From positions 1-24,954 of the IMG/VR virus record IMGVR_UViG_3300009545_000055: 24,954 nt of DNA; one strand, 5' to 3'. Shown here one piece after another: positions 1,183-6,884 of this stretch (position 1 is its first letter; each line of letters opens with the position of its first letter). The translations under genes were made by a program, and so were the position numbers. The notes below the pieces were generated by a model, which saw only the letters and a list, made by a program, of their open reading frames with translations, was not told the DNA's origin and did no database searches. This stretch comes from a virus.

Positions 1183-1920
1183 ATGCCATCGCTGGAAAGG
1201 AATGCGCGCGCGTTGAGTAGGGGGATCGCGGCGCTACTATTGTGTGCAGCGGGGACCGCGAAAGCTGCACCCCCAACGATTGACGCAGTCGTACCCGCCC
1301 AGATCAAAAATCGACTTTATCTCGGCGATGCGGACGTTGGTGCGTTGGGGAACTCGCTCGAGCCAGTCGTCTGCTATTTCGGCATGCTCAAAGACGGAAA
1401 GCTTGAAGTGGCATCGATTATGCCAGACTCGTTCGGATCGGGTTCCGCGTTAGTGGGGACGAAGCTCGAGGACGGCAAGGCCGGCTACGACGCAGTCGTC
1501 ACCTCCACGAAGGACGTAAACGCCGGCATCCCGATCCTGAGCCTGACATTGGCCAACAACCAGAAGGCGGAGGTCTCGTTCACAGACACCGCGCGTGTTG
1601 AATGTGCCAAATCACCGAATATGGCAGATTGGGAGAAGCTGCCCGTCGCTGCTGCGGATCGGACATGGGTCTTCATTAACACCGCCACGGTCAGTGTGGT
1701 CAGATCCACCATCCTCACCGAAACGACGTCCGGAATTGCCGGCCTCATTCAGGCTTTCACCGTGGGAGCGAAGACGTACAATGCCCTGGATGGTTCGTCG
1801 TCGGTCCTCGCCGTATCGCTGTTTGTTAAAAAGGATCCGCGCAAGCTTGCGAACCTGCCTGCCGGGCTCCTGCAGGCTACTCGCAGTCAGCGATCCCTGA
1901 GCGACATGGCTAACCAATAG
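1183..1920 (+). CDS. Secreted/periplasmic hypothetical protein
   Basis: The start is placed at ATG 1183 because an AGGGGAG at 1170-1176 lies 6 nt before it; the in-frame ATG at 1177 is too close to that site. The 245-residue product has a typical Sec signal peptide: basic n-region (LERNARALSRG), hydrophobic core (IAALLLCAAG) and a likely cleavage after AKA. The mature part is beta-rich, with patches such as EVASIMPDSFG and PILSLTLANN. I recognise no domain. It is not a usual P2 structural gene and has its own candidate promoter. Its stop codon lies inside the last 11 bases of the convergent portal gene, so it is tightly packed against the late block. It is probably a moron that changes the host envelope or fitness; this is inference. 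Confidence 0.7.
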   Translation: MPSLERNARALSRGIAALLLCAAGTAKAAPPTIDAVVPAQIKNRLYLGDADVGALGNSLEPVVCYFGMLKDGKLEVASIMPDSFGSGSALVGTKLEDGKAGYDAVVTSTKDVNAGIPILSLTLANNQKAEVSFTDTARVECAKSPNMADWEKLPVAAADRTWVFINTATVSVVRSTILTETTSGIAGLIQAFTVGAKTYNALDGSSSVLAVSLFVKKDPRKLANLPAGLLQATRSQRSLSDMANQ

Positions 1921-2956
1921 GCGCGGGTTTGGTGAGCAGGTCGTAGGGCTGGAAGGCCACGGCCTCCTCGCCCACCCACTCGTTCACCTCGAGGAAGCGC
2001 GCCTGCAGCGGCTCGATCTCGTTGCGGAAGAACACGTCGGCCGCCTTCTCGACATCGCCGAAGCCGCCGGCGTTCGCGGGCACCACGCCGAGCAGCTGAG
2101 GCGGCACGCGATGCGCGGCGAGCATATCGTCGCGCGTCGTGTTCTTGATGCCGAGGAATTCGTCCTTGGCCGCCGCCTCGCCGATCGGGATCAGCTGCAG
2201 GCCTTCCTTCTTGCCGCCGGGCACATGGAGGAACAGGTTGCGGAAGTTGCCCACCCCTTTCGTGTTGGCGAGCGCCTCCTCGAGATCGTCGGCATCCTCC
2301 TCGGCGAGACCTTCGTCGGTCGCATACAGGATGAAGCCGGCATGGCTCCCGTTCTGGTAGTAGCGCCGGCGAAACAGGGTTGCGGCCTCATTGAGCAGCG
2401 ACGACTGCAGGGCCGAAAGATATTCCGGGACGCCATAGATTTCCTGCGTCAGGTCGGGCTCTGCGAGCTGGAAGACCGAGCCCTTGTCAAACTGGTGCGG
2501 CATGCGCGTGTTCGTGACGAACCAGAAGGTGTCGAGATCGACGCCCCGGCGCGTATAGACGCCGAGCGACGGCGCGAGCATCATCGATCGGCCCAGCGCA
2601 TTCTCCTGTCGCTCGAGATAGCCGTTGCCGAGCACCAGATAATCGAGCGCCCAACGGCTGAATGCGGCGCTCGACAGCAGCCGCGACGGCGTGAAGGTCT
2701 TGAGCAGCAAGTTCCGCTTTACGAGGATCGCCGAGCTATGATGCGGCGCGATCCGGTAGGCGCGCGCCAGCCCGGCCATGGGCATGGGAGGCTCGAACCA
2801 GCGGGAATTGCGGACGCACTCGAGCATCCCGAAGATGTCGCGCCGGTCGAGCACGGGCTCGGGATCGCCGAAGCTGAACATGCTGACGCCCCTCTTCGGT
2901 GCGCTCGCCTGCTCGGCGCCGGCGACCGCCGGAAGCTGGACGCTGGTCTCCGCCAT
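1910..2956 (-). CDS. Q: Phage portal protein (P2 gpQ family)
   Basis: The 348-residue protein has the length and order of motifs of P2 gpQ (Phage_portal family). It forms the dodecameric ring at the capsid vertex through which DNA enters and to which the tail connector attaches. Recognisable stretches are FSFGDPEPVLDRRD near residue 30, LGNGYLERQ near 115, the PDLTQEIYGVPEYLSAL segment near 170, the RRRYYQNGSHAGFIL segment near 200, and the C-terminal TRDDMLAAHRVPPQLLG segment. The start ATG (2954-2956 on the plus strand) has a good GAGGA 6 nt upstream. It is co-transcribed leftward with the terminase, whose reading frame runs into it. Its 3' end overlaps the convergent secreted-protein gene by 11 nt. 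Confidence 0.97.
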   Translation of the reverse strand: MAETSVQLPAVAGAEQASAPKRGVSMFSFGDPEPVLDRRDIFGMLECVRNSRWFEPPMPMAGLARAYRIAPHHSSAILVKRNLLLKTFTPSRLLSSAAFSRWALDYLVLGNGYLERQENALGRSMMLAPSLGVYTRRGVDLDTFWFVTNTRMPHQFDKGSVFQLAEPDLTQEIYGVPEYLSALQSSLLNEAATLFRRRYYQNGSHAGFILYATDEGLAEEDADDLEEALANTKGVGNFRNLFLHVPGGKKEGLQLIPIGEAAAKDEFLGIKNTTRDDMLAAHRVPPQLLGVVPANAGGFGDVEKAADVFFRNEIEPLQARFLEVNEWVGEEAVAFQPYDLLTKPAPIG

Positions 2957-4748
2957 AATTGATCCTCAGTCTGCTCTTGCGCGGGCGACCGTCGTCCGCG
3001 TCCAGGGGTTCGTTGTAGAGGGCGTGCATGATCGCCCAGGCGAGGTCGGCGTGGCCGATCGCCTCGCTGCGCTGGGCGACATAGGTGATCTGGCGGCCCG
3101 ACTTGGTGAGCTGCGGACGGATCGCCATGAAGCTCGCCGCCACGTCTGCCCAACCGCCGTCGAACTCGATGCGGCCCGAGGTGAAAACGTGCTTGGCCTT
3201 GTAGACCATCGCCGACTTCACCTGCAGGTTGTAGTCGATGCGCTGGGCGCGCGGGAAGAACTTGACCACGCACTGCCACACCGCCGCGCCGGCGCCGGTG
3301 GTGTCGATGCCGATATGCTGGACGTTGTACCGCTGGCAGAGCTTGCGGATTTCCTCGGCCTGCTCGGTGAAATCCTTCCCGCGCCACTGGAATTTCTCGA
3401 GCACACGGAACTTGCCCTTCGGCCCCTTTGGCGGCGCGACGACGACGCATGCCGCCTGGTCGCCATTGGCGCTCTCCTGCGGATCGTAGCCGATCCACAC
3501 CTCGCCCTCGCCGAACGGGCGCGGAAGATAGGAATTGAAATCGCGCCAGGCGTCGAACGCATCGACCATCGCGCGCCGCATCATCGACAGCGGGAACATG
3601 CTCACCGTGTCGTCGACGAAGTTGCACATGTAGAGGTTGTCGAAGACGTCGCCCGGCTTAGTGCGGCGCAGATGCGCGATATCGAACAGATCCGAGCCCG
3701 CCGCCTCGGCATCCTCGATGGTAACGATCTGCCGCCAGATCTCGTCCGGCCCCGGCATCCCGGCTTTCAGCGCGGCACGGCTGATGTCGATCTTTGCGCG
3801 CGCGCTCTTCGGCTGGCTGTCGGCCCACGTCTTGCCGGTCCATTTGGAGTAGGCTTCGTGCGTGATCGAGCTGGGCGTGGAGAAATAGGTCTCGCGATAG
3901 CGCTTCTGCGAGGCCATGCCGGAGGCGACGGCCTCGATCTGCTCGAAGCCGTGGACCCAGAAGCACTCGTCGAAATAGAAATTGCCGTGATAGCCCTGGG
4001 CGGTGCGATAATTGGTGCCGAGGAAATAGATGGTCGGCTGCTCGAGCTGCTTTCCGTCCTCGTCCTGCCCCCGGTCGATCGTGAGGTGCTCGCCCTTCAA
4101 CTGGACGCCGGTGACCGCATAGACCCACTCGACGATGTAGGTACGGAAGATGTTCGCCTGGTTGCGCGAGGCCGACAGGAAAATCTGGTTGCTGCCGGTG
4201 TCGAGCGCATCGATGAACGCCTCGCGCGCGAAATACCACGTAGCGCCGATCTGGCGGCTCTTGAGGATGAAGCGTGTCTTGTGGCTGAGCCGGGCCTCCC
4301 ACCAGACGAGCTGGAAATCGAAGATCGACGCGAAGAAGTCCTCGCGTAACGCCTCGATCTGCTCGGGCGTGAGATAATTGACCTTGGGCTTCTTCTTCGG
4401 CTCGCGGTTCCGATTGGCGACCTTCTCGTTGAGATCGCCCTCATGCCCGCCGGGCGCCTCGTAGCGGCGCACCCGTGCCGTGCGCTCGAGCTGGCGGCCG
4501 AGCAGATCGATTTCCTTGAAATCCCGCCCGCTCTTGTCCTCCTTCATGATCAGGAGCTGCAGGCGGGCATCCAGCGCCGATTCGATTCGCTCGAGCGGCG
4601 CGGTCGTGTCCCACGCATCGCGCTGTTTCCAGCTGCGGATGGTGTTGGCATTCGCGCCCGTCACTTGGGCGATCTGCTCGCAGTCGTAGCCAGCCCAATA
4701 GAGCTGCCGTGCCCGGCGCCGCACGTCGAAGGGGATAGGAACGGTCAT
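2736..4748 (-). CDS. P: Terminase large subunit, ATPase/nuclease (P2 gpP family), lacking its expected stop
   Basis: gpP is the motor ATPase that cuts at cos and pumps DNA into the prohead. Numbering from ATG 4748: an N-terminal helix-turn-helix (residues 8-45, GYDCEQIAQVTGANANTIRSW), a Walker A-like SRQIGATW at 164-171, a Walker B-like YFDE with D260/E261, and nuclease-domain acidic residues including D422 (IGYDPQ) and D482 (IGIDTT). The family-like end NEPLDADDGRPRKSRLRIN falls at residue 597. The frame then continues without a stop for 73 arginine-rich residues read out of frame through the portal gene, giving 670 residues in all. I chose ATG 4748 over ATG 4778 because AAGG lies 9 nt upstream and the late box lies at the standard distance. 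See findings for the lost stop. Confidence 0.93.
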   Translation of the reverse strand: MTVPIPFDVRRRARQLYWAGYDCEQIAQVTGANANTIRSWKQRDAWDTTAPLERIESALDARLQLLIMKEDKSGRDFKEIDLLGRQLERTARVRRYEAPGGHEGDLNEKVANRNREPKKKPKVNYLTPEQIEALREDFFASIFDFQLVWWEARLSHKTRFILKSRQIGATWYFAREAFIDALDTGSNQIFLSASRNQANIFRTYIVEWVYAVTGVQLKGEHLTIDRGQDEDGKQLEQPTIYFLGTNYRTAQGYHGNFYFDECFWVHGFEQIEAVASGMASQKRYRETYFSTPSSITHEAYSKWTGKTWADSQPKSARAKIDISRAALKAGMPGPDEIWRQIVTIEDAEAAGSDLFDIAHLRRTKPGDVFDNLYMCNFVDDTVSMFPLSMMRRAMVDAFDAWRDFNSYLPRPFGEGEVWIGYDPQESANGDQAACVVVAPPKGPKGKFRVLEKFQWRGKDFTEQAEEIRKLCQRYNVQHIGIDTTGAGAAVWQCVVKFFPRAQRIDYNLQVKSAMVYKAKHVFTSGRIEFDGGWADVAASFMAIRPQLTKSGRQITYVAQRSEAIGHADLAWAIMHALYNEPLDADDGRPRKSRLRINYGGDQRPASGGRRRRAGERTEEGRQHVQLRRSRARARPARHLRDARVRPQFPLVRASHAHGRAGARLPDRAAS

Positions 4749-4794
4749 CGCGGCGGACCTTGCCGCGCGCGTGGCCATCGCGCGGCGCCCTGCC

Positions 4795-5840: not shown

Positions 5841-6884
5841 ATGCGTAACGCCACCCGCAATCTCTTCAACGCCTACGTTTCGCAGATCGCGCTGCTCAGC
5901 GCCGTCGCGAGCGCCGCCACCTCCTTCACCGTCGATCCCGCCGTCGCCCAGAAGCTCGAAGAGCGCACGCAGGCCTCGAGCGAGTTCCTGACCCGCATCA
6001 ACTTCGTCACCGTCGTCCAGCAGGAAGGCGAGAAGGTCGGCATCGGCGTCGCCCAGCCGATCGCGGGCCGCACCGACACGTCGGGCGCCGGCGAGCGCAC
6101 CCCGACCGATCCGACGTCGATGGACAGCAGCCGCTACCGCTGCGAGCAGACCAACTTCGACACGGCGCTGCGCTACTCCACCCTCGATGCCTGGGCGCAT
6201 AAGCCCGAGTTCCAGACGATCGTTCGCGACGCGATCCTGAAGCGGCAGGGCCTCGACCGTATGCTGATCGGCTGGAACGGCACGTCCGTCGCCGCGACCA
6301 CCAACCGCGTTACCAACCCGCTGCTGCAGGACGTCAACAAGGGCTGGATCCAGCATACCCGCGAGGACGCTGTCGAGCGCATCATGAGCCACGGCTCGCT
6401 CGACAACGCCAGCATCTACATCGACGCCGAGGGCGCGCTCGCCGACGAGCCGACCGCCGATTACGTCAACCTTGACGCCCTCATCTTCGACGTCGTCGAG
6501 CTGCTCGACGAATGGAACCGCGATGACACCGAGCTGGTGGTGATCGTCGGCCGCGATCTCGTCCACGACAAGTACTTCAACATCGTCAACACCGCCGGCG
6601 ACGATGCCGAGAAGCAGATCGCCCGCGACGTCCTGCTCTCGACCAAGAAGCTGGGCGGCCTGCCCGCCGTCCGCGTGCCGGGCTTCCCGGCCGGCAAGCT
6701 CGCGGTCACCCGTCTCGACAACCTGTCGATCTACAACCAGGAGTCGTCGCGCCGCCGGGCGATCATCGACAATCCGAAGAAGGACCGCGTCGAGAATTTC
6801 GAGAGCGTGAACGAGGCCTATGTCGTCGAGGACTATGGCCTGATCGCGGTCGCCGAGAACATCGTCATGGGCAAGAAGGCCTGA
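5841..6884 (+). CDS. N: Major capsid protein (P2 gpN family)
   Basis: The 347-residue protein matches gpN of P2 (about 357 residues) in length and in position after O. It builds the T=7 icosahedral shell. The N-terminal part, ending near FTVDPAVAQKLEERTQASSEF, is the region removed by the O protease in P2. The segments EKVGIGVAQPIAGRTDT (near 60) and VENFESVNEAYVVEDYG (near 315) are typical of the family. GGAGA lies about 8 nt before the ATG. The gap to O is 43 nt and the gap to M is only 2 nt, so all three are co-transcribed. Confidence 0.97.
   Translation: MRNATRNLFNAYVSQIALLSAVASAATSFTVDPAVAQKLEERTQASSEFLTRINFVTVVQQEGEKVGIGVAQPIAGRTDTSGAGERTPTDPTSMDSSRYRCEQTNFDTALRYSTLDAWAHKPEFQTIVRDAILKRQGLDRMLIGWNGTSVAATTNRVTNPLLQDVNKGWIQHTREDAVERIMSHGSLDNASIYIDAEGALADEPTADYVNLDALIFDVVELLDEWNRDDTELVVIVGRDLVHDKYFNIVNTAGDDAEKQIARDVLLSTKKLGGLPAVRVPGFPAGKLAVTRLDNLSIYNQESSRRRAIIDNPKKDRVENFESVNEAYVVEDYGLIAVAENIVMGKKA

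Follow-up and report, generated by a model that had tools for sequence, protein, structure and literature searches.

The terminase large subunit gene of a P2-like phage, found in the window (the whole 24,954-base virus record IMGVR_UViG_3300009545_000055), has no stop codon at the end typical of its family and runs out of frame into the downstream portal gene, with which it shares 221 nt on the minus strand. We propose that this is an inherited and largely neutral stop-loss overlap of an already known kind, a reading to which we assign a probability of roughly 0.78. The overlap is old and tolerated in phages of Sphingomonas-type bacteria rather than a fresh break, and when a GC-rich phage gene lacks its stop and gains an Arg-rich tail it is not necessarily broken. 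The junction represents a well-sampled natural case of recurrent stop loss in which close relatives that have kept the stop serve as controls, and for this reason it offers real sequences on which to test neutral models of how genes come to overlap.

The terminase matches the Pfam families Terminase_5, Terminase_6N and Terminase_6C above the cut-off and up to residue 589, which identifies it as the P2 gpP type, and the product of the downstream ORF matches Phage_portal; the PHROG assignments agree for both proteins. This domain architecture, together with the order of terminase and then portal on one strand, is that of the gpP terminase and gpQ portal of P2 and 186, and the window protein is ~52% identical to the terminase of phage 186. 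Counted from its first ATG (4778) the ORF encodes 680 aa; the 670 residues given in the initial annotation correspond to the ATG at 4748. Residues D270, E271, D432, D492 and D578 do not vary across the 26 sequences aligned, and we take these acidic residues to be those of ATPase and nuclease catalysis. At the junction the terminase frame reads ...CGC AAG AGC AGA CTG AGG ATC AAT TAT GGC GGA... (minus strand), and the family-typical end, RKSRLRIN, has its last base at 2958 with no terminase stop at that point. The initial annotation had described a frame that continues 73 codons into the portal gene, and both the ORF coordinates and the extent of the overlap agree with this. Whereas the ordinary P2/186-type members shown end 12–22 residues past the core with a sequence resembling STMEIF, in the window ME is changed to LR and the protein extends 87 residues beyond the core; the usual length is not a defining character, as 37 of 207 junctions depart from it. 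AlphaFold predicts the terminase core with confidence and no structured domain in the tail. The coordinates of these features are collected in Table 1.

Table 1. Features of the terminase-portal junction in the window.
Feature	Coordinates	Strand	Evidence
ORF of the gpP-type (P2) terminase large subunit, 680 aa counting from the first ATG	4778..2736	-	ORF list, Pfam, PHROG
Terminase portion that closes with the family-typical SRLRIN; core folded until ~residue 593	2958..4778	-	Alignments with relatives; AlphaFold confident to ~residue 590
Out-of-frame C-terminal tail of terminase, 73 codons, Arg-rich, predicted unstructured	2739..2957	-	Translation; pLDDT 31-37, residues 600-680
Terminase stop TAG, made of portal codons CAT AGC	2736..2738	-	Sequence
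Portal protein ORF, 348 aa, ATG at 2956	1910..2956	-	PF04860, phrog_68
GAGGA, Shine-Dalgarno-like site for portal, within the last ordinary terminase codons	2963..2967	-	Sequence; kept in relatives via otherwise rare codons

According to one option in the initial annotation, a one-base deletion at 2954–2962, either real or a sequencing error, had broken the terminase stop and may have damaged the prophage. In most of the family the two genes overlap by 1 or 4 nt, and the frame relation in the window is indeed one base off from that. However, a second IMG/VR record (L032), 99.97% identical to the window over 7.8 kb, has an identical junction, which rules out a base-calling slip there. The two records differ at only two places, both away from the junction: a substitution near window position 6356, and one extra base in L032 at 4894/4895, within the leader that separates the terminase gene from the divergently oriented scaffold gene. 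Judged by its sequence, L032 looks like another assembly of the window's phage. Furthermore, the four nearest relatives (L002, L003, L074 and L111), the first of which has a terminase core 97% identical to that of the window, all keep the same terminase-portal frame relation, as does a large clade of further phages. Between the window and L003 there is an in-frame length change at the junction (AATTATGG versus AATCGGAATGG) that leaves the frame unchanged, and the suggested TAATG junction was seen in no relative of the window group. A recent loss is refuted by this distribution, and as an explanation for the window we regard it as extremely improbable. Both terminase and portal have since been under purifying selection within the lineage. 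For the terminase, pN between the window and L002 (0.006–0.028) lies far below pS (0.22–0.32), with pN/pS ~0.05, so the protein has been kept functional, and the suspicion that the prophage was damaged is not sustained. The option of an extended terminase, also offered by the initial annotation, is supported. Relatives with the same frame, which it had sought as a sign that the extension is ancestral, do exist; the selection on the tail residues that it had sought alongside them was not found.

The distribution of the overlap was assessed in 207 distinct terminase-portal junctions gathered from genome, viral and family searches. In 37 of them the terminase extends 65–165 residues beyond the core and shares 152–413 nt with the portal gene. 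At the remaining 170 junctions the terminase ends no more than 22 residues past the core, and tails of 23–64 residues are absent from the whole set. All 37 long overlaps place the portal in the +1 frame of the terminase, with an overlap length that leaves a remainder of 2 on division by 3. The isolate bacterial genomes with such an overlap include Sphingomonas sp. PR090111-T3T-6A, S. kyeonggiensis and Sphingomonas sp. PL-96. On trees of the terminase and the portal the long overlaps comprise the five-member window group, a main clade of ~23, L181, and L057/L058, and the trees require at least 3–4 changes between overlapping and ordinary junctions. A single origin of all the long overlaps was rejected on these grounds, although recombination at the junction could mimic such a pattern. 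Prophages in five Sphingomonas genomes found later (L288, L289, L292, L293 and L296) have junctions like those of L057/L058 and were left off the trees. They retain an ME[ILV] end, unlike the window, and most of them have a partly acidic tail start (e.g., DGEAED) as opposed to the basic tail of the window. A literature search on terminase C-terminal extensions and on P2-like phages of Sphingomonas returned nothing directly on point in titles or abstracts.

The stop may have been lost in more than one way. On the terminase tree the main clade has L050 and L193 as its sisters, in both of which a single base separates the stop from the portal ATG (GAG ATT TAC TGA T ATG and GAG ATC TCC TGA C ATG, respectively), and the main-clade junction, AGG ATC TTC GGA C ATG, has the same spacing. 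Because the spacing is unchanged, a substitution within the stop codon would be the simplest path in the main clade. The L057/L289 lineage has GATG where its relatives have TGATG or GAATGA, to which an old loss of one base would fit. The one-base shift put forward in the initial annotation, although not supported for the window, does fit this other lineage. In L162, a relative of L181, the terminase stop lies three codons inside the portal gene.

We propose that the usual tight junction between terminase and portal was present in an ancestor and that, once the terminase stop had been lost, the terminase frame ran on into the portal gene in a +1 relation. The ribosome would add to the terminase a mostly basic, unstructured tail of 50–150 residues, and translation would end wherever the portal codons happen to permit. 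The portal would be initiated independently from its own Shine-Dalgarno site within the last ordinary codons of the terminase, and the tail would be tolerated and at most weakly useful. We infer that the tail is produced, that it is harmless and that portal initiation is internal.

Null models in which 3' extension of an upstream gene gives long phase-1 overlaps without selection have been published (Fonseca et al. 2013, PMC3887535; Sabath et al. 2008, PMC2542354), and a correlation of overlap enrichment with high GC was reported in the latter (PMC2542354). The window overlap fits the long phase-1 same-strand class (>60 nt, length mod 3 = 2, both genes with homologues), and it resembles the published 3'-extension overlaps in its single strand, its phase, the lost upstream stop and a length set by the frequency of frame-shifted stops; enrichment at high GC is a further point in common. 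Two things set it apart: several related phage lineages show such an overlap at one and the same junction, and stops in the first 50 portal codons are slightly fewer than predicted.

The length of the tail can be accounted for by composition. Inside the portal gene, the terminase frame meets a stop only where AA, AG or GA comes directly after a portal codon whose last base is T. The third positions of these portals are 84% G+C, stops occur at ~1.3–1.7% of codons in the terminase frame, and since frame-closing codon combinations are this rare in GC-rich portals the read-on is long by composition. When the window portal was resampled synonymously, 46% of trials matched or exceeded the observed run in length (p = 0.46), and the 72-codon open run in the window is therefore ordinary. 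In relatives whose genes do not overlap, the hypothetical read-on has a median of ~42 codons. The same holds for the arginine fraction, which is 0.24 in the real tails; non-overlapping portals read in this frame give 0.21, and the description of the tail in the initial annotation as a shadow translation of the portal gene is in agreement with this. Arg-richness was accordingly rejected as a sign of function. Every tail stop listed sits at an NNT portal codon. In L111, CAC CAC stands where L074 has CAT CAT, and the tail measures 165 rather than 86 aa with the portal residues there unchanged. Many long tails (L004, L009, L025, L036, L047, L049 and L051) end at one portal motif, (E)RRD or QRS, at a CGT codon, whereas at this site the Arg before D/N/S/E/K is never encoded by CGT in the 9 non-overlapping relatives checked. 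This common end could be due to shared ancestry or to selection against longer overlaps.

A different reading takes the tail for a selected extension at the C-terminus, such as a disordered, basic arm that touches DNA or the portal, kept open because its length and charge, rather than its sequence, are under selection. Several observations point in this direction. Among 24 representatives, a frame-closing T was observed once in portal codons 1–50 against 16.7 expected, while elsewhere (other regions and groups) the count is mostly 0.5–0.9 of expectation, with a range of ~0.3–1.0. Open runs longer than 26 codons have medians of 104.5 in overlapping and 62 in non-overlapping (ordinary-stop) relatives (p = 0.017 by sequence cluster, 0.08 by event), and no tail of 23–64 residues occurs. 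Portal-synonymous divergence is slightly lower inside the overlap: the median inside/outside ratio is 0.88 for overlapping pairs as against 0.94 for the controls (p = 0.09), and in several close pairs synonymous divergence reaches its minimum in the overlap. Together these observations hint at some selection for an open tail. Against this reading, the effects are marginal at the level of events, the length varies over the full 65–165 residues and jumps through changes that are synonymous in the portal, and no structure is predicted. Moreover, the charge equals that of the shadow frame of non-overlapping portals and is ~0 in L289 and L296. No conservation of tail residues in the terminase frame was detectable across relatives, and NN/NS for the alternative frame, pooled over pairs, amounts to 1.20 within the overlap and 1.41 downstream of it, i.e., not below 1. 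With portal-synonymous divergence reduced only mildly as well, purifying selection on the alternative frame was not found in the pooled pairs. A selected extension is on balance unlikely. The broader proposal, that sphingomonad P2-like phages repeatedly gained a translated terminase arm, selected for charge and length and encoded inside the portal gene, is quite unlikely; were it true, the two partners of the packaging motor would share DNA and co-evolve. In keeping with the largely neutral overlap that we prefer, we read the tail residues as near-neutral, with a possible weak preference for an open frame that shared ancestry renders uncertain.

At window-type, main-clade and L181 junctions the ordinary part of the terminase finishes with the codons xTG or xTA and then AGG, AGA or GGG. 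Elsewhere in the same genes GTA makes up 1.9% of Val codons, and AGG and AGA together account for 2.5% of Arg codons. As read from codon choice, this pattern is consistent with conservation of a Shine-Dalgarno site (GAGGA, 2967..2963) serving the portal ATG at 2956, and with such a site the portal could start without a nearby terminase stop. A second in-frame portal ATG, at 2881, also follows a purine run; its use would reduce the overlap to 146 nt without abolishing it. In the window-type (2963–2969), main-clade and L181 junctions shown, a portal-frame stop triplet (TGA, TAA or TAG) lies 12–18 nt before the portal ATG. This triplet would suit a +1 frameshift on the terminase message that ends the protein at the portal-frame stop, giving a terminase of ordinary length and a coupled portal start, with the long tail as a side product. 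However, the upstream codons vary freely with no conserved slippery codons among them, and the L057/L289 lineage lacks the stop triplet. The triplet is, in addition, explained by a hydrophobic residue (T at position 2) followed by the AGG of the Shine-Dalgarno site, of which it is probably a by-product. A programmed +1 frameshift was rejected for want of a conserved slippery site at the junctions, and we consider the mechanism very improbable.

At its other end, the portal gene meets the end of a 247-aa ORF with a signal-peptide-like start, which is encoded on the opposite (plus) strand at 1177–1920.
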